In this document: in pieces, positions 52,861-64,000 of the stretch
How the letters are laid out: each line of letters begins with the position of its first letter
Position numbering within the stretch: the first letter of the stretch is position 1
Origin: Halobaculum magnesiiphilum
GTDB taxonomy: Archaea; Halobacteriota; Halobacteria; Halobacteriales; Haloferacaceae
Assembly: GCF_019823105.1 (NCBI RefSeq)
Contig: NZ_CP081958.1
Location: 496,001-560,000, forward strand
Length of the DNA: 64,000 bases
Direction: 5' to 3'
Made by a program: the position numbers and the translations under genes
Notes under the pieces: generated by a model
Databases searched by the model: none
What the model was told of the DNA's origin: nothing
The model's input: the letters and a program-made list of their open reading frames with translations, nothing else

Positions 52861-54543
52861 TCAGTCGTCGCGCTCGTCATCCTCATCGTCTTCGTCTTCG
52901 CCGTCCGCCGTCTCACAGTCCCCGGGGACGACGGCGGTCTCGCCCGCGTCGCGGTCGCCGTCGTCGGCGAACGGCGCGCCGATCGCGATGTCGCGAACGT
53001 CGTCGTCGGTCACGTCGCCCACGTCGGCGACCGCGAAGCCGGCGCGGTCGACCGAATCGTCGCCGAGGAACGTGGCGGTCGCGTCCGCCAGATCGACCGT
53101 CCGGCCGTCGTCGTCGCCGGTCACGAGGTAGGCTGCGCCCGCGAGGAGTCCGGCCTCGGAGTCGTGGTGGGGGGCGCCGACAAGGACGGCGGCGTACTCG
53201 TCACAGGAGTCGTCGACGCCGGCGACAGCGAATCCCGCGAGGTCGCCGCGTCGCTCTCCCAGCAGCGTCCGGTCGGCGTCCGCGAGGCTCGCGTCGGCCC
53301 GCGACTCGTCGTCGAAGTCGCCGCCGTGGACGACGTACGCGGCGCCGGCGTTGCGACCCGCTTCGTCGTTGTGCGGCGCGCCGACCACCACGTCGCCCGC
53401 GCCGTCGCCGTTCACGTCGCCGGCGACGGCGACGGCCCAGCCGGCCTTGTCGCCTCTCGCCTCGCCGGCGAATCGCGCCGTCGCGTCCGCCAAGCTCCGC
53501 TCCCCGTCGGCGTCCAGGGCGTCCGAGACGACGTACGCCGTGCCGGCGTCCGTCCCCTCCGCGTCGCTGCCGGGTGCGCCGACGATCAGGTCCGACCGAT
53601 CGTCGTCGGTCACGTCGCCGGCGGCGACGGCCCAGCCGGCCACGTGCTCGCGGTCCTCGCCGTGGAAGGTCGCGTCGGCGTCCGCCAGCGAGATGCTCGT
53701 CTCCTCCGGGCCGTCCCGGAGATCGACGACGTACACCGAGCCGGAGGCGTTGCCCGCCGGGTCGGCGGCCGGCGCGCCGACCACCGCAGCGCCGCCCTCG
53801 CCGTCGCCGGCGCTCAACACGTCGACCGCGAAGCCGGCGCGGTCGCGCTTCTCCTCGCCCGTGAGTCGGACGTCGGCCACGTTCGGCAGACTTCCATCTT
53901 CGATGTCGGAGCCCCCGTAGACGACGTACGCCGCGCCGGCGTCGGTCGCCTCGGCGTCGTCGCTCGGGACCCCGATGATCAGGTCGCTGTACTCGTCACC
54001 GTCGAGGTCGCCGCCGGCGACGGCCCAGCCGGCCACGTCGTTCTCGTCGGGCGCCGTGAACGTGTGGTCCGCCTCCGAGACGTCGATCTCGTCGGCGTCG
54101 ACGGGGCCGTAAAAGAGGTACGCCGCCCCGCCGTTCTTCTCGCTCGTGTCCGCGCTCGGCGCCCCGACCAGCAGGTCGTCGTGGCCGTCGCCGTTCACGT
54201 CGCCCACGCCCGCGACGGACCAGCCTGCGTAGTCGGCCCGCTCGTCGCCGACGATCAGCGTGTCGGCGTCCCCGAGGTCGATCCCGCCGCCGGCGACGCC
54301 GGCGGGTCCGCCGCCCGTCGAGGATGCCCGGTCGGCAGCAGGGTCACCGATCTCCGTGCCCACGTCGGTCGCGGCCGCGAGCCCGGTGACGCCGACCGCG
54401 GGTGCAACCACCAGCACCGCGACCATCACGATGACCGCCGCCGGAACCCGTCTCATCGCCTCGAACCGTCGATCACGCTCCCCATCGTCCGGTTCACCGC
54501 CGCCGAGTTCGGCCCCGTTGAGTTCGTCGTCGCTAGTGACCAT
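52861..54543 (-). CDS. FG-GAP seven-bladed beta-propeller surface protein
   Basis: A 560-residue exported or membrane-anchored protein. A 30-residue acidic leader precedes a hydrophobic segment (about 34-58; VPAAVIVMVAVLVVAPAVGV), then seven FG-GAP/integrin-alpha-type repeats of about 60-65 residues, each with an AG(W/F)xVAxxGDVxxDxxxDxxxGAP core such as YAGWSVAGVGDVNGDGHDDLL. The Asp-rich loops would bind calcium. Seven units make one closed propeller. The tail is Asp/Glu-rich. An alternative start is Met30 (54456), which would make the hydrophobic segment a conventional signal. It probably mediates adhesion or ligand binding; no ligand is evident. Confidence 0.88.
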   Translation of the reverse strand: MVTSDDELNGAELGGGEPDDGERDRRFEAMRRVPAAVIVMVAVLVVAPAVGVTGLAAATDVGTEIGDPAADRASSTGGGPAGVAGGGIDLGDADTLIVGDERADYAGWSVAGVGDVNGDGHDDLLVGAPSADTSEKNGGAAYLFYGPVDADEIDVSEADHTFTAPDENDVAGWAVAGGDLDGDEYSDLIIGVPSDDAEATDAGAAYVVYGGSDIEDGSLPNVADVRLTGEEKRDRAGFAVDVLSAGDGEGGAAVVGAPAADPAGNASGSVYVVDLRDGPEETSISLADADATFHGEDREHVAGWAVAAGDVTDDDRSDLIVGAPGSDAEGTDAGTAYVVSDALDADGERSLADATARFAGEARGDKAGWAVAVAGDVNGDGAGDVVVGAPHNDEAGRNAGAAYVVHGGDFDDESRADASLADADRTLLGERRGDLAGFAVAGVDDSCDEYAAVLVGAPHHDSEAGLLAGAAYLVTGDDDGRTVDLADATATFLGDDSVDRAGFAVADVGDVTDDDVRDIAIGAPFADDGDRDAGETAVVPGDCETADGEDEDDEDDERDD

Positions 54544-56719: not shown

Positions 56720-56877
56720 ATGGGTGTTCATTGAGTGTTCGACGTTGGTTACAACACCTTCGCCACCGGTACAACCATGATCGACCGAACCAACCGCTAC
56801 CTACTCAAACGCCCCTCGAGGCGGTGCTCGATTGGACAGTACCATTCCGGCAGCCGAACCTCCCATCTGGTGTGTGA
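56720..56877 (+). pseudogene. Transposase remnant (C-terminal end)
   Basis: The plus-strand reading ends HLRHRYNHDRPNQPLPTQTPLEAVLDWT, which has the YNHxRPxxxLxxxTPxE signature near the end of DDE (rve-type) transposases. The upstream catalytic part is missing, so this is a truncated insertion-sequence relic. The start position is approximate because no initiation site is preserved. Confidence 0.7.
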
Positions 56878-57337: not shown

Positions 57338-58495
57338 ATGGGTGTTCGAAGCATCGTCGGGACCCTTCTCGGGGGAGCCCTACTCGTGGTTGTGGCCCTG
57401 CTGCTCGTCGGACAGCTCATGGGCCAGCCCGTGCTCCTCGGATACGTCTCCACGGGCAGCATGGCCCCGGCGCTCCAGCCCGGCGATGGCTTCGTCGCCA
57501 TCCCCCCCGCGTTCGCCGGGCCGATCGAGGAGGGAGACGTCGTCACCTTCGAGGCACGCGAGCTCAACGGCGGCGGACTCACGACCCACCGAGTGGTCGG
57601 TCAAACAGAGGAGGGGTTCATCACGAAAGGGGACGCCAACCCAGTCACCGATCAGGACGGGTCCGAGCCGCCGGTGTCGCGCTCGCAGGTCGTCGCGGTA
57701 GCATGGCAAGTCGGCGGCGACGTGGTCGTCGTTCCGAATCTGGGGGTCCTTGTAACGGGTGTCGGCGACCTCATCACCGGCGCCCAGCAGCAGTTGGCGG
57801 TGGCACTCGGAACCCGTGCGCTCCTCGGCACGCAGGGACTGGCGTATGTGCTGTTCGCCGTCGGCGTCGCGGGATACGCGCTCACTGCAGTGCTCGGCGC
57901 GCGGAGCCGGGAGCGCGTTCGCGGCGCCGTCCGACGGTCGACGGGGATGGCGAACGTCTGGACGATCGTCCTCGTGTTGGCGCTCGTGTTGGCGCTCGTG
58001 CTCACGGCGAGTATGATCTTCACCGGCGGGGAGAGGACCTTCGAGGTCGTCAGCTCCCAGAGCGACGCCGCCGGGATCCGCGTCATCCCGGTTGGCGGGA
58101 CGGAGGAACTCACCTATCGGATCCCGAACCCGGGGATCACGCCCGTCGTCGTATACCTGGAACCAGCGAGCGAAGGTGTGAGTATCGAGCCACAGCGGGT
58201 CCGGCTTGCGGGCGGCGAGGAGGCGAACGTCAGCGTCTCCATCTCCGTCCCGGACCGGACCGGCGTGTACGATCGAGGGTTCGTTGAACACCGGTATCTC
58301 GCGCTACTCCCCGCCGACGTTATCGACTCGCTGTACGCGATCCACCCGTGGGCGCCGATCCTCGCGATCAACGCACTTGTCTGTGGATTGTTCGTGCTCG
58401 TCGCGGTCGCGGTCGTCGGGTCCGGCGTGATCCGTCTCGACTCGCGCAATCCGAACGTCTCGACGCTCGACCGGATCAGACGCCGGCTCAGGTGA
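57338..58495 (+). CDS. Sec11/SipW-type signal peptidase I fused to Ig-like ectodomain
   Basis: A 385-residue membrane protease. After an N-terminal transmembrane helix (5-27) comes the archaeal/ER-type signal peptidase fold with the nucleophile Ser41 in STGSMAPAL, His84 in TTHRVVG (in place of a bacterial Lys) and Asp99 and Asp105 in TKGDANPVTDQDG. Beyond about residue 160 the protein has two more membrane helices (167-187 and 205-228), a beta-rich domain (230-335) resembling COG1470/NEW3-type Ig folds, and a C-terminal helix (345-370). Ser-His type enzymes include SipW, which processes fibre proteins. Its neighbours include small exported proteins with SipW-like signals, so it is probably their dedicated peptidase. 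Confidence 0.88.
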   Translation: MGVRSIVGTLLGGALLVVVALLLVGQLMGQPVLLGYVSTGSMAPALQPGDGFVAIPPAFAGPIEEGDVVTFEARELNGGGLTTHRVVGQTEEGFITKGDANPVTDQDGSEPPVSRSQVVAVAWQVGGDVVVVPNLGVLVTGVGDLITGAQQQLAVALGTRALLGTQGLAYVLFAVGVAGYALTAVLGARSRERVRGAVRRSTGMANVWTIVLVLALVLALVLTASMIFTGGERTFEVVSSQSDAAGIRVIPVGGTEELTYRIPNPGITPVVVYLEPASEGVSIEPQRVRLAGGEEANVSVSISVPDRTGVYDRGFVEHRYLALLPADVIDSLYAIHPWAPILAINALVCGLFVLVAVAVVGSGVIRLDSRNPNVSTLDRIRRRLR

Positions 58496-58555
58496 TCCGT
58501 TCCTCGTGGCGCGGTTGTTTTATTCTGTGCGGAACGGGGATGACTAACGCCTAAT

Positions 58556-58563
58556 CTTAAATG
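58556..58563 (+). promoter_or_regulatory. TATA-like box upstream of the coiled-coil protein gene
   Basis: CTTAAATG predicts transcription starting near 58585, a few bases before ATG 58593. It suggests a promoter separate from that of the signal peptidase gene. Confidence 0.45.
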
Positions 58564-58592
58564 TCTGGTTTGGTATACACCTGTAGGTTGCA

Positions 58593-59909
58593 ATGAGCGA
58601 GAACGGAGATCCGGATCGGGGAGGCCGACCCGGCCGGATCGACGAAAAGGTGCTCGGCTCCTGGATCCGGGAAGTCGCCGACGAAACGGGGATGACCGAA
58701 CAGGAGGTCCTCGATCGAATGCTCTCCGCCTACTGGCTGATCGACGAGTTCGAGGACCCATCCCGCGACGATGCCATCGATCGGTCGAAGCCGCTCGGCT
58801 TCGGGTCCGATCTCCCCGACCTCGGCGCCGATTCCCTCACCCCTGGGGTTTCGAGATTCGGGAACGACGAACCGGATCCGTCGGAACCTGAAGGAGACCG
58901 GCAGGGGGAGCCCGACCCGGAGCTGGCGCAGCTCTCCGCGAAGATCGACCGCATCGTCGAATTGCTCGCCGACGAGGCGGACGAGGAGTCGGACGACGAG
59001 CGGACCGACGCCAAGCTCGACACGCTCGACGACCGGCTAGACGCGCTCGACGACCGAACGGGAGCGCTGGCCGACACGGTCGACCGGCTTCGGAACTACG
59101 TCGAGGAGATCGACAGGGAGGCGCCCGATGCGGGCACCGTCGAGCGACTGCAGGACGCCGTTCCTGAGGTCGCACGCGAGGTACAGCAACTTCGCGAGGA
59201 CCAAGACACGCTTCGTTCGGAGGTCTCCGAGGACTTCGGCCACATCGAGCGGATCCTTCGGCACCTCCTCGACCGAACCGACGAGCTCGAGCGCTCACTC
59301 GAGCGGGCCCGCAGCCACGGGGAGGACCGGGAGCGGAGCCGCGTGGACGAGCGGCTTACGAAGCTGAAGCGGACTGCGAGCGCCGAGGGAATTCGCTCGG
59401 CCGAGTGCGACGAGTGCGACGGCTCGGTGGACCTCGGCGTCCTCCCGGAGCCCCGGTGTCCGCACTGCGGCGCCGAGTTCATCTCGCTGGAGCCGAGATC
59501 GTGGCTGTTCGGGTCGAACACGCTCTCGGTCCGAAGATCCCGGAACCCGGACCCTCGCGAGCCGCTCCACCCGGACCGTGGGAACTCCGCCGAGGCAGCG
59601 GAGAACGCCGCGTTGACGGACGAGTCGACTAGAACCGGTCCACCAGACGACCCCGCCGCGGTTGACGAGGGAGACGATTCCGCCGAGCCTGCTGACCGGA
59701 CGGGGGAAGCAGGCGAGAGATCGTCAGGGATAGCGAGCGAGATCGACCTGAGCGACGATATTCGACCAACCGGGGACCGGAGCTCCGACACCGACGGAGA
59801 TCGGGCCGACATCGAGGACGGGACGGAGACGGGGTCCGGAACGCACGCCGATGCGAACGAGGACGATGGCGAGGAAGCGGCCGGGGAGGGTTTCGACTGG
59901 GATCGATAA
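58593..59909 (+). CDS. Coiled-coil protein with zinc ribbon
   Basis: A 438-residue acidic protein that I do not recognise as a family. Residues of about 10-50 (KVLGSWIREVADETGMTEQEVLDRMLSAYWLIDEF) look like a small helical domain. Residues of about 105-255 are a long coiled coil (for example LDTLDDRLDALDDRTGALADTVDRL and later LRHLLDRTDELERSLERA). A four-Cys ribbon follows (CDECDGS...CPHCGAEF, near 275-300), and the last 130 residues are disordered Asp/Glu/Ser/Thr. There is no signal peptide or membrane helix, so it is probably cytoplasmic. Its position between the peptidase and DUF7504-type genes suggests a scaffold or regulator of the export locus. Confidence 0.7.
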   Translation: MSENGDPDRGGRPGRIDEKVLGSWIREVADETGMTEQEVLDRMLSAYWLIDEFEDPSRDDAIDRSKPLGFGSDLPDLGADSLTPGVSRFGNDEPDPSEPEGDRQGEPDPELAQLSAKIDRIVELLADEADEESDDERTDAKLDTLDDRLDALDDRTGALADTVDRLRNYVEEIDREAPDAGTVERLQDAVPEVAREVQQLREDQDTLRSEVSEDFGHIERILRHLLDRTDELERSLERARSHGEDRERSRVDERLTKLKRTASAEGIRSAECDECDGSVDLGVLPEPRCPHCGAEFISLEPRSWLFGSNTLSVRRSRNPDPREPLHPDRGNSAEAAENAALTDESTRTGPPDDPAAVDEGDDSAEPADRTGEAGERSSGIASEIDLSDDIRPTGDRSSDTDGDRADIEDGTETGSGTHADANEDDGEEAAGEGFDWDR

Positions 59910-60000
59910 CGTCCCGGCCCCTCGATCCCTCTGATGCGACTGAAGTGGGCGTTCACCAGCCCTCGCGGGATCGATCACAAACTATCAGCGTGGGACTACC

Positions 60001-60933
60001 GTGGACGACGAGACTACAGCCGACGAAGAAGAGGATCAAGGCGACGAGCGGCCGCGCAGTTCCCTCGCCGAGCTGGCGGACCGCATCGCCGGCGGCGACA
60101 CCACGGACGATCGGGCCGACGGAGAGCCAGACGGAGAGCCGCGGGATCGAAGGGACGCTGACCCGGACGAGGGGAGCGGAGACGACGGGATCGGGCTGGA
60201 CCTGTCGCTGTCGGGGTCGTCGTCCCACGAGTCGAGCGGCGACGAGCCGACCGGCTCTGACGACTCCGACGAGCAGTTCTCGTGGGAAGAGCTCTCCTCG
60301 GACCTCTCGGTGTCGGACGAGGCCTTCCGTGCGGACGAGGTGCTGTCCGAGGCGCGAAACGTGATGCTCATCGATTCCCATGGGGACATTTCGCAGGGGC
60401 CCTGTTTCGAGTGTCTCGCCCGAGCGCCTTCCCGCGAACTGGGTGTCGTCGTCGTCACGTTCACCGACATCGCGAGCGACTGGCTCGCCGACTGGCGGAC
60501 GCAACACGGCGACCTTCCGGCACAGGTGACGTTCATCCGGATCGGGGGGCACAACCGGGATGGACGAACCGAGACGATCTCGACCGAACAGGGACGGACG
60601 CAGGTCGTGCGGACCGGCGTCAGGAGCCCCACGGACCTCACCCGACTCGGTATCTCGATCAGTCGACGGCTCGGTGAGGCGGAGGACCGCGATCTCACCC
60701 CCGTCCTGTGTTTCGACGCGATCACTGATCTGTTGGAGTACGTCGACGTAGAACGGCTGTTTCGGTTCCTCACCACGCTGACCGGTCGGGTCGGGGCCCT
60801 CGGCGGGTCCGCCCACTACCACGCCGACGCGGCGGCGACCGACGAGGAGACGATCCGGACCCTCCGACAGGTGTTCGACGACACGATGTACGTCACGGAA
60901 ACCGGCAGCCTCCGACCCTCGAGGAACGATTAG
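60001..60933 (+). CDS. RecA-like (DUF7504-type) protein without Walker A
   Basis: A 310-residue protein. The first 105 residues are acidic low-complexity; the rest (about 112-305) looks like a RecA/KaiC-like alpha/beta fold of the haloarchaeal DUF7504 type: NVMLIDSHGDISQGPCFECLARAP, ELGVVVVTFTDIASDWLADWR, FIRIGGHN, LTRLGISISRRLGEA, PVLCFDAITDLLEYVDVERLFRFL. The usual GxxxxGKT loop is absent; the corresponding position reads SHGDISQGP. In related loci such proteins accompany signal-transduction or surface-structure genes. The start is GTG 60001. I assign the family tentatively, from the fold pattern. Confidence 0.7.
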   Translation: MDDETTADEEEDQGDERPRSSLAELADRIAGGDTTDDRADGEPDGEPRDRRDADPDEGSGDDGIGLDLSLSGSSSHESSGDEPTGSDDSDEQFSWEELSSDLSVSDEAFRADEVLSEARNVMLIDSHGDISQGPCFECLARAPSRELGVVVVTFTDIASDWLADWRTQHGDLPAQVTFIRIGGHNRDGRTETISTEQGRTQVVRTGVRSPTDLTRLGISISRRLGEAEDRDLTPVLCFDAITDLLEYVDVERLFRFLTTLTGRVGALGGSAHYHADAAATDEETIRTLRQVFDDTMYVTETGSLRPSRND

Positions 60934-60952
60934 GCCGCGGTTTCGCGACCGT

Positions 60953-61558
60953 TCACGCCTCGCTCCCGCCCAAGTTTACGTCCGGCGGCGGCCCCTCGTC
61001 ACCGAGGCGCATCTGACGGCTGGAGTACAGCTGCGCGAACGCCGACAGCGCGAAGCTCGCCAACACGACCGCCCCCCACGCGAGGTCCGGTACCGCGTCG
61101 AACGGGCGGACCTCCAGCCACGCCAGCGCGAGCACGATCGCGTTCGCCGCCGACAAGCCGGCGTAGTAGAGGCTCCACGGGACGCTCTCCTTCGGGACGA
61201 CCTCGAGGTAGATGTCGACCGCACGCATGCGGTCGGAGAGCTGAACCGTCCCGGCGTCGCTGTCGTACTCGACGACGCCCTCCCCGTCGAGCGTGTCGAG
61301 GTGCGACTGATACAGCGAGACGTAGACCCGCTTGCGCTCCTTGGAGGTGATCTCGTTCGGCTGCTTGTCGTTCTCCCACGCGGCGACCTGTTCGGCCAGT
61401 TCCTGTACGCTCACCGGTTCCTCGCGCTGCTTGAGGTAGTGGAGCGTGTATCGGCGGCGACGGTTGGAAAGTACGGAGTAGAGCGTGTCGGGCGAAACGT
61501 TCCGTTGGTCATCCGTGGGTGTGCTCACGCCGAGATCGTCTAGTCGATTGGCCGGCAT
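60953..61558 (-). CDS. Membrane-tethered winged-helix regulator (DUF7344-like)
   Basis: A 201-residue predicted transcription regulator. Residues of about 20-115 form a winged-helix (DTLYSVLSNRRRRYTLHYLKQREEPVSVQELAEQVAAWEN and RKRVYVSLYQSHLDTLDGEGVVEYDSD), the pattern of the haloarchaeal DUF7344 family. Two transmembrane helices follow (about 132-152 and 160-182), so the DNA-binding domain is tethered to the membrane. It faces away from the exported-protein gene at 61833, with 274 bases between. A regulator of the flanking surface-protein genes is a reasonable guess. Confidence 0.85.
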   Translation of the reverse strand: MPANRLDDLGVSTPTDDQRNVSPDTLYSVLSNRRRRYTLHYLKQREEPVSVQELAEQVAAWENDKQPNEITSKERKRVYVSLYQSHLDTLDGEGVVEYDSDAGTVQLSDRMRAVDIYLEVVPKESVPWSLYYAGLSAANAIVLALAWLEVRPFDAVPDLAWGAVVLASFALSAFAQLYSSRQMRLGDEGPPPDVNLGGSEA

Positions 61559-61832
61559 CGTCAGTGATGACGTGATAGCTCCCTCGCGTCACAAGGAAAC
61601 TGTATGAATTCGATTTAAATATGTCCATTCTGTTCGGGCTGTGACAGTCGAATCGATCCGATGGGGGATCGGTGACGCACAACTGTGTCGGGTGTCGGTC
61701 ACTGTGGCGGGACCTCGATCTGGTCGGATCCAACGTATTCGCACGGTAGATCGCTTTGAAATTCCATTTCATGTGAGCTGATTCGCCGTACGGTAACCAA
61801 GACTTAATGCCCAACAGCGACTCTATTTAGCC
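61559..61832. promoter_or_regulatory. Divergent promoter region of regulator and exported protein
   Basis: An AT-richer 274-base region. On the minus strand ATATTTAAAT (about 61612-61621) could be the regulator's TATA box. On the plus strand CTTAAT (61803-61808) is centred 27-28 nt before ATG 61833, predicting a leaderless transcript. Direct control of both by the DUF7344-like protein is possible. Confidence 0.5.
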
Positions 61833-62927
61833 ATGGGGCGCAGAGGCCGTGGCTCAAAGAATCGGCTCGGACGCCGGCTCTTCCTCCTGCTGGCAGCCGG
61901 TTCGGTAGCCGGCGGATTCGTCACGGCCTCGGGCGCCTACTCCTCGATGCGGGCCGGTCGAGAGACCAAGATAAACGTGGCCGGAGATTCTGACGCGTAC
62001 CTCGGGCTCTCGATCCCTCCGTACGTTGACGCAGGTGAAAGCGGGGAGGAGCTGGTCACGATCTCCAACAATACGGGTACCTCGCTCACGATATCCGTCG
62101 GGTTGGTCAACGCCTCGGGAACGGTGTCACCCAGTAGTACCTCGGTAGCGCCAGGCGCGTCTCAGACGTTCACCGTGGACCTCTCCGCCGACGTCTCGGC
62201 GGGGGATAACGCCCTGACCGTCGATATCTCCGCAACCGACGGATCGTCGGTGAGCGTCGAGCTCCGCCGGAGCCTGGGTGTCCGGAACTTCCTCCGGCGT
62301 CTGGAGGACCGAACGGCGAACGACAACGCGCTGTATTATCTCTCCTATCGGCTCCAGAACATCGACAACTTCCAGTCGTACGAACTCGTAGTACGGAACC
62401 TCGACTTGAACTGGGTACAGACGCGAACGTACACGAGCACGGATTACGAGCACATTTTCCGAATCCCGGCGTCGGGATCCGACGGCGGCACGGCCGGGTC
62501 CAGATACGAGTTCGACATGCGGGTCTACGACGCCAACGGGCTGGCGATCCAACGAACTATCACGGACGTCGCCGACGGCAACGATCCTCCGGACAACGAC
62601 AGCATCGGCGGGGGACCGGAGGACCCGGTGGTCGTCGACTTCACGATCACCGACAACGAGCAGTACAACACGGCCCATTACGTCGTCGACTACGAAGTGG
62701 ACAAAACGAGCAACCTCCAGGAGGTCCGGGTCACGTTCGACAACCAGTCCAATTCGTGGGCAGATACGACCGAGACGAGCACCGACGAGCCCACCGGGAC
62801 GGTCACGTACGACCAGGGCGGCGTCGCCGGCGACACCTACGAGATCACGGTGGAGGTCGTCAACGACAACGGTATCGTCACGGACTCGCTGACGAAAACG
62901 GACGTCGCCGACGGCACGGACCCGTAG
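61833..62927 (+). CDS. Exported TasA/DUF1102-like protein with two Ig-like repeats
   Basis: A 364-residue exported protein. The N-terminus has a short basic stretch, a hydrophobic core LFLLLAAGSVAGGFVTASGA and the segment YSSMRAGRETKINVAGDSDAYLGL, a SipW/TasA-like signature shared with the gene at 63172. Residues of about 45-145 form a first beta-sandwich (VTISNNTGTSLTISVGLV). Then two homologous Ig-like repeats follow, each ending with VRVYDANG/VEVVNDNG and a DVADGNDP or DVADGTDP motif (about 155-255 and 262-364). No C-terminal anchor is present. It is probably a fibre or matrix subunit or adhesin processed by the signal peptidase encoded at 57338. Confidence 0.82.
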   Translation: MGRRGRGSKNRLGRRLFLLLAAGSVAGGFVTASGAYSSMRAGRETKINVAGDSDAYLGLSIPPYVDAGESGEELVTISNNTGTSLTISVGLVNASGTVSPSSTSVAPGASQTFTVDLSADVSAGDNALTVDISATDGSSVSVELRRSLGVRNFLRRLEDRTANDNALYYLSYRLQNIDNFQSYELVVRNLDLNWVQTRTYTSTDYEHIFRIPASGSDGGTAGSRYEFDMRVYDANGLAIQRTITDVADGNDPPDNDSIGGGPEDPVVVDFTITDNEQYNTAHYVVDYEVDKTSNLQEVRVTFDNQSNSWADTTETSTDEPTGTVTYDQGGVAGDTYEITVEVVNDNGIVTDSLTKTDVADGTDP

Positions 62928-62940
62928 CGCGTCCCGAGCG

Positions 62941-62960
62941 GACCCTTGACGGCAAGGGTC
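62941..62960 (+). terminator. Hairpin downstream of the exported-protein gene
   Basis: GACCCTT and AAGGGTC form a perfect 7-bp stem with a 6-base loop, 14 bases after the stop codon. No T-run follows, so it may be an attenuator or RNA-stability element rather than a classical terminator. Confidence 0.4.
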
Positions 62961-63171
62961 GTGCCGGCGACCGCCGATTCGGCGATTCTTCGCTGAAACG
63001 TGCGATTCCGACCGAGTAGGCACGCCTACCGCACTGTCTCGGCCGGAGTAGGGAAGTGTACCGTTCGAGTAGGCCGGTCATACAAAGGAGAAACGGGTGT
63101 ATGGTGGAACTAAGCCTCGACGGGTCCCGCGGTGGACCGAACGGGCGAAACACACACGAGGTACACACGAT

Positions 63172-63681
63172 ATGAGACCCAAAGGAAAGCTGTTCGCGCT
63201 GCTCACGATCTTCGCCGCCATCGGGCTGGTGACTGCGAGCGGTGCGTTCACGACGGTGCAGGCGGATCGTACAGCGAATGTTGAAGTGAGCGGAGACAGT
63301 TCCGCACTGATAGGAATCACGGAGAACGAAAGCACGTCCTTAGCCAATCTGAACACTGATGACGGTGAGGCAACGTTCGAGTTTGGTAATAGCTCACATG
63401 GTCTAAACCAGAATGCCACAACGTCACTCACGCCCATAGCCGACATCACCAACAACGGAGACGAGGACGTGGAACTGACCATCAGCTTTAGTGACCTTCC
63501 GGAAAATTGGGGTGTCACCGCGGTTGATGGTGGCAACAACACCATCAGCGAAACTACTACACTCACACCCGGTGAGTCCATCGCCTTTGGTCTGGTGTTT
63601 GATATTCCATCCCAATCGATCACGGAATCTGAGGGATTCAGCTTTACGATCGAGATAAACGCTGACAGCAGCGAGGCATAA
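63172..63681 (+). CDS. Exported SipW-signal TasA-like small protein
   Basis: A 169-residue exported protein. KGKLFALLTIFAAIGLVTASGAFTTVQADRTANVEVSGDSSALIGI combines a signal core with the TASGA(F/Y) and GDSxA(L/Y)(I/L)G signature also seen at 61833. The mature part is all beta, with a long sandwich strand pattern (ANLNTDDGEATFEFGN, SLTPIADITNNGDEDVELTISFSDLP and ESIAFGLVFDIPSQSI) and many Asn, Thr and Ser residues. TasA/camelysin and archaeal bundling-pilus subunits share this size and signature. ATG 63172 begins MRPKGKLFALL. Codon and base use is less GC-rich than in the neighbours, a possible sign of recent transfer or surface-protein diversification. Confidence 0.8.
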   Translation: MRPKGKLFALLTIFAAIGLVTASGAFTTVQADRTANVEVSGDSSALIGITENESTSLANLNTDDGEATFEFGNSSHGLNQNATTSLTPIADITNNGDEDVELTISFSDLPENWGVTAVDGGNNTISETTTLTPGESIAFGLVFDIPSQSITESEGFSFTIEINADSSEA

Positions 63682-63804
63682 TCTCGTAGCGTTCGATAAA
63701 ATCGGTTAGGCGGAGTAGACACCGCCCCTTCCTCGGTCCCCTCTGCGGGCCTTCGCCAGCATCGCATAGCCGCTTGACCGCACCCACACTACACAGTACC
63801 CACG

Positions 63805-64000
63805 ATGAACACCACCGCCGCGAGACTGGCGTCCGTCCTCCTCCTCGTCGCGGTGGTGGCAGTCCCCGGCCAGTTTCTGCTCGCGTCCGCGGCAGCTCCC
63901 ACGGACGACGTATTCTCCGACCAAGGTGTGACGCTCCGGCCTTCCGAGGGGGCGAACGGCGACTACGCCAGCATCAACGACCAGGGCAACCTCACCGTGG
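63805..64000 (+). CDS. Exported protein, DUF1102-like (partial, runs off window)
   Basis: The first 65 codons of a gene open to the window edge. A signal peptide (MNTTAARLASVLLLVAVVAVPGQF, then LLASAAAPT) is followed by DDVFSDQGVTLRPSEGANGDYASINDQGNLTV, an opening typical of haloarchaeal DUF1102-like secreted proteins, where an (A/N)GxYAxIxDxGxLxV strand pair is common. It continues the run of exported proteins. Function beyond that cannot be judged because most of the gene lies outside. Confidence 0.65.
   Translation, partial: MNTTAARLASVLLLVAVVAVPGQFLLASAAAPTDDVFSDQGVTLRPSEGANGDYASINDQGNLTV

Follow-up and report, generated by a model that had tools for sequence, protein, structure and literature searches.

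Which kind of fibre, if any, is encoded by the cluster of exported proteins that adjoins a SipW-type signal peptidase gene in the analyzed stretch of Halobaculum DNA? The stretch, called the window below, comprises 64,000 nucleotides (bases 496,001-560,000 of contig 1 of a haloarchaeal genome of 3.73 Mb), and according to the gene calls the locus does not stop at the window end but reaches about position 67,108. A preliminary description made from the sequence had named the peptidase, the exported proteins, and several accessory genes, and gene calls and domain searches found every one of these features at its given place. We consider it very probable that the locus encodes a Tafi-type pilus (TasA-like fimbria) of Halobaculum and represents a distinct subtype. 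The observations behind this reading are the gene content, the homology of the three exported proteins, the conserved gene linkage, the fold match of the subunit, and the occurrence of the same core at the locus of a solved pilin.

The central protein is the exported TafE/Tafi-pilin-like subunit of 169 amino acids encoded at 63172..63681 (+) (NF052522, 1.4e-16). The pilin of the Natrinema sp. J7-2 Tafi pilus (9p0a) matched this protein in phmmer with 3e-8 and matched its family profile with 4.6e-35 across profile positions 1-177. One genome contains a stretch 100% identical to that pilin; at this locus (L170), the genes for the pilin, a TafF-like anchored protein, SipW, and DUF5305 are adjacent, and DUF7344 lies 3.3 kb from the cluster. 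This match is the strongest link to a known pilus, and judged by gene families it identifies the core of the window locus as a Tafi locus core. The AlphaFold2 model of the subunit had a mean predicted local distance difference test (pLDDT) score of 77.5, mostly above 90 in the sandwich region, and its best fold matches were 7ueg, the bundling pili of Pyrobaculum (1.9e-4), and 7pnb, a Sulfolobus thread (6.4e-4), with FimA and 9p0a (1.7e-3) among the further ones. The models thus bore out a resemblance to bundling-pilus subunits; TasA itself was outside the top 50 matches, the top ones being archaeal pili, one of which was published as TasA-related. Among 69 TafE-like relatives, R33 and D42 were invariant and the G-A-F motif was kept in 66, the GAF site of the window subunit being located at 63241-63249 (+). 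DUF1102 (PF06510), one of the profiles suggested earlier, matched 20 of these 69 relatives, with 1e-9 at best, and left the window protein unmatched. This protein is probably the main fibre subunit. Its gene has a G+C content of 52.9% compared with 69.4% for the window, which suggests recent exchange or rapid divergence; this composition and the patchy presence within the genus agree with a frequently exchanged surface structure.

The two other exported proteins belong to the same family, as indicated by profile comparisons. A profile of the subunit and 68 relatives matched exactly three places in the genome, all of them at this locus (E values of 7e-39, 1e-15, and 3e-11), which shows the three proteins to be true homologues. 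The exported TafC-like protein of 364 amino acids (61833..62927, +; NF052521, 2e-8) was related to the subunit family with an hhalign probability of 99.4%. The third protein had been described only by its start at 63805, which was correct; the full gene, at 63805..65931 (+), runs past the window end at 64000 and encodes 708 amino acids of an exported, membrane-anchored PKD/PGF-pre-PGF protein (PF18911, 2.7e-21). This protein was matched by the subunit family profile at 1.3e-15, and its N-terminal domain reached hhalign probabilities of 99.7% with the subunit family and 99.4% with TafF. These hhalign scores come partly from shared signal peptides, yet 138-167 columns align. The closest NCBIfam families are named fimbrial adapter (TafE) and fimbrial protein (TafC).

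The signal peptidase (57338..58495, +; 385 amino acids) passed the cut-off of the archaeal signal peptidase I model TIGR02228 only just, with 52.0 against 51.85 bits. Its catalytic residues Ser41 (codon 57458-57460) and His84 (57587-57589), as well as D99, were invariant across 18 homologues, and the extra, putatively Ig-like ectodomain noted earlier was recovered as a segment of about 100 residues between the hydrophobic segments 200-232 and 335-369. The label "SipW-type" needs narrowing, since the protein is SipW-like but reached only 29.8 of the 190 bits required by the Bacillus SipW equivalog NF046067 and is no equivalog of Bacillus SipW. DUF5305 was ruled out as a relative of the ectodomain, the two showing no similarity in hhalign (probability 0.4%). 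The genome collection contained 411 relatives of the peptidase, and its closest neighbour in the peptidase tree was that of Halobaculum saliterrae, with 92% identity. In that species, a second TafE copy lies directly downstream (L069:15171-15967), with a very AT-rich stretch in front; its start and body are in different frames, possibly through a frameshift or a draft error.

The linkage of the peptidase with exported proteins was seen across haloarchaea, as a synteny check had been expected to reveal if the preliminary reading was right; neither this check nor the structure model refuted that reading, which is supported. Among 118 related genomes with 87 strong peptidase matches, DUF5305 was located within 15 kb of 66 matches (56 of them within 1.5 kb) and a TafE-like gene within 15 kb of 45. 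The chance expectation is an estimated 1-4%, given one to few copies per 3.4-Mb genome, and the linkage is above chance, while P-values mean little for genomes that are not independent. The peptidase was present in every one of the 61 genomes that contained a TafE-like gene. Within Halobaculum (11 genomes), the full-length peptidase, DUF5305, and the TafE-like gene occurred in the same six genomes, a seventh having a weak partial peptidase match only. In a second sample, made up of 61 loci of more than 15 kb from named haloarchaea, DUF5305 was present in 60, TafC/TafE-like genes in 59, DUF7344 in 54, PKD-type proteins in 29, DUF7504 in 10, and the zinc-ribbon protein in seven. The conserved core across haloarchaea, as defined by these families, is the SipW-type peptidase, DUF5305, a divergent DUF7344, and exported TasA-like subunits. 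In the window locus, the DUF5305 gene follows the 708-residue gene outside the window (66089-67108; 8.8e-44). The DUF7344 winged-helix protein (60953..61558, -; 201 amino acids; PF24035, 4e-32) has a C-terminal hydrophobic region and is divergent from the subunit genes, in line with the membrane winged-helix gene described before, whose role as a regulator is probable. Some genomes (e.g., G080, G018, and G039) hold 7-11 TafE-like genes, and two Natronomonas loci (L113 and L114) contain at least two Taf-like clusters within about 21 kb. One contig labelled "Mollicutes bacterium" (L127) carries a haloarchaeal-type pilus locus and is probably mis-binned.

Several results weigh against a Tafi-type pilus. 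The template modelling (TM) scores of the subunit fold matches were low (about 0.4), the N-terminal strand had pLDDT values below 50 in the monomer model, and the sandwich fold alone is unspecific, since FimA and other Ig-like (immunoglobulin-like) proteins also match it. Of the profile searches suggested earlier, the TasA/camelysin models (Pfam Peptidase_M73) matched neither the window proteins nor the 69 relatives. No window protein reached the curated Taf cut-offs (61 of 155 bits for TafE with the subunit, and 34 of 410 bits for TafC with the TafC-like protein); TafA was not found and TafF did not pass.

Haloarchaea commonly bear type IV pili as surface filaments, so a type IV pilus or a system related to the archaellum had to be weighed. 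Its probability is vanishingly small, since the peptidase is of type I rather than a prepilin peptidase, the subunit is a beta-sandwich, and a class III prepilin signal, an assembly ATPase, and a platform gene are all missing from the gene calls of the locus; this candidate was rejected on gene content and fold. It is also quite improbable that the exported proteins form a loose secreted matrix or a coat associated with the S-layer, with the peptidase as their dedicated signal peptidase. The multi-domain, surface-protein-like architectures of the TafC-like and PKD proteins would suit such a coat, but the subunit family includes a protein solved as a pilus, whose locus shares the core genes.

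A variant that changes one component of the Tafi-type reading gives the TafC-like protein the role of a chaperone or initiator that donates a strand, as a counterpart to TapA of Bacillus; TapA is a chaperone that works by strand complementation and has an Ig domain of its own (PMC10151520). The protein has a PapD/ASH-like first domain followed by two repeat domains; the Pfam ASH match was weak (1.3e-3, below gathering), and the best fold matches of the first domain, which was well modelled, were PapD-like chaperones. However, these matches had TM scores of only about 0.23-0.24 by query and 0.39-0.43 by target, and the AlphaFold2 model (mean pLDDT of 58.5) was confident only for approximately residues 50-150 and too poor to read past 150. 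The profile homology to the subunit family and the naming of its relatives as the fimbrial protein TafC also speak against this assignment, which we regard as rather unlikely.

Within the Tafi-type reading, the next question was how the locus relates to the canonical taf fimbriae, which were found through TafA scores over the cut-off in 11 of 195 genomes. A canonical locus scored in full exceeded all cut-offs (TafA 250, TafC 567, TafE 225, and TafF 581 bits), with TafF, TafE, TafA, DUF7344, TafC, a peptidase of the same family, and DUF5305 arranged within about 7 kb. Since the window proteins are far from the Taf cut-offs and the canonical taf peptidases occupy a different part of the peptidase tree, the window locus was excluded from the canonical taf loci. 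Its sequence features instead mark it as a distinct minority subtype, a divergent relative of taf. What is new is at most this subtype, that is, the addition of a zinc-ribbon protein and DUF7504 together with a Sec-like (general secretory) subunit start; the earlier suggestion of a possibly undescribed combination does not hold, because the core is that of the Tafi/Taf fimbriae, a kind already known.

The two subtype-specific genes lie directly after the peptidase gene. The zinc-ribbon coiled-coil protein (58593..59909, +; 438 amino acids) is predicted to be cytoplasmic and carries the cysteines CDEC...CPHC; the four cysteines of the pattern CxxC...CPxC were kept in all eight relatives found at loci of this kind, and coiled-coil profiles matched, as the preliminary description had it. 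The second protein (60001..60933, +; 310 amino acids) belongs to the RecA/KaiC-like DUF7504 family (PF24336, 1.2e-26), so that the family assignment stood, but the Walker A motif GxxxxGK[ST] was absent from 13 of 13 relatives. The subunit start differs as well: a Tat-like (twin-arginine translocation) RRxFL-type motif, usually RRKFL, opens 60 of the 69 TafE-like relatives, while the window subunit starts with the Sec-like MRPKGK and is one of six without the RR motif, all from loci with DUF7504 and four of them also with the zinc-ribbon protein. Part of this association is due to shared descent, because the subtype loci mostly stand close together in the peptidase tree, although they form no single clade. 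The top zinc-ribbon matches in other genomes were also near such loci (e.g., G020 and G025), although both proteins have weaker paralogues at other places too. One zinc-ribbon paralogue elsewhere in the genome (G000:C1:1372994-1373842) has a match that runs across a stop codon. These findings leave room for a tentative proposal, which we hold to be possible rather than probable, that this is a second haloarchaeal Tafi pilus type, with a main subunit that switched from Tat-like export to Sec and with two dedicated cytoplasmic proteins, the zinc-ribbon coiled-coil protein and the Walker-A-less DUF7504 protein, that run or position the pilus.

In the mechanism that we propose, the subunit precursors would be exported, the main subunit via Sec and the TafC-like protein, with its Tat-like start GRRLFLLL, probably via Tat. 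The SipW-type peptidase would cut them beside the conserved G-A-F/Y site, which reads GAF in the former and GAY in the latter. By analogy with TasA, the freed N-terminal strand would complete the beta-sandwich of the next subunit, so that a fibre would grow with no need for type IV pilus motors. The 708-residue protein, with its subunit-like N-terminal domain and C-terminal membrane segment, is probably a membrane-bound base or terminating subunit, and the TafC-like protein may serve as a second subunit or, in view of the modelled PapD-like first domain, as a TapA-like initiator. DUF5305 may assist at the membrane, DUF7344 is probably the regulator of the divergent subunit genes, and the zinc-ribbon and DUF7504 proteins would act in the cytoplasm, in accessory or control roles peculiar to the subtype.

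A solved haloarchaeal pilus is hereby tied to a five-gene cassette spread across the order. With one peptidase, one to three subunits, and a single locus in the genome, the system offers a simple genetic target for usher-less donor-strand assembly in archaea. Tat-like and Sec-like subunits make folded versus unfolded subunit export directly testable; the two pilus types would assemble from subunits in different folding states, provided that Tat export delivers its substrates folded.

Close to the locus, a gene at 52861-54543 (-) encodes an exported protein whose repeats are of the FG-GAP (integrin-like) type (Pfam, 1.3e-35). The translation of 56780-56877 (+), HRYNHDRPNQPLPTQTPLEAV, resembles a transposase tail by eye but had no Pfam match, and this reading was dropped. 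A viral origin of the locus was discarded: the PHROGs search returned nothing but a DUF7504-type family of unknown function, and the BFVD fold search gave no match at 0.001 or better.

Among known systems, the Natrinema Tafi pilus shares with the window the subunit family, the fold, and the core of pilin, TafF-like anchored protein, SipW, DUF5305, and DUF7344. It differs in the Tat-like pilin start NRRNVL, in the zinc-ribbon/DUF7504 pair, which was not seen at the Natrinema locus, and in the PKD domains of the window's anchored protein. The Taf fimbriae agree with the window locus in the families of the peptidase, DUF5305, and DUF7344, in having TafC- and TafE-like subunits, and in the TafF-like N-terminal domain, whereas the window locus lacks TafA, stays far below the equivalog cut-offs, and has another gene order. 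The Pyrobaculum bundling pili gave the top fold match of the subunit model at 11% identity. In Bacillus subtilis, SipW removes the signal peptide of TasA, and the N-terminal strand of TasA is then used to complete the following subunit; this donor-strand assembly was published in a paper that also cites TasA-related archaeal bundling pili (PMC9674648). The tapA-sipW-tasA operon resembles the window locus in that a SipW-type peptidase adjoins its exported fibre subunits, while the window proteins have no sequence match to TasA and the archaeal peptidase carries an extra ectodomain and falls outside the SipW equivalog.

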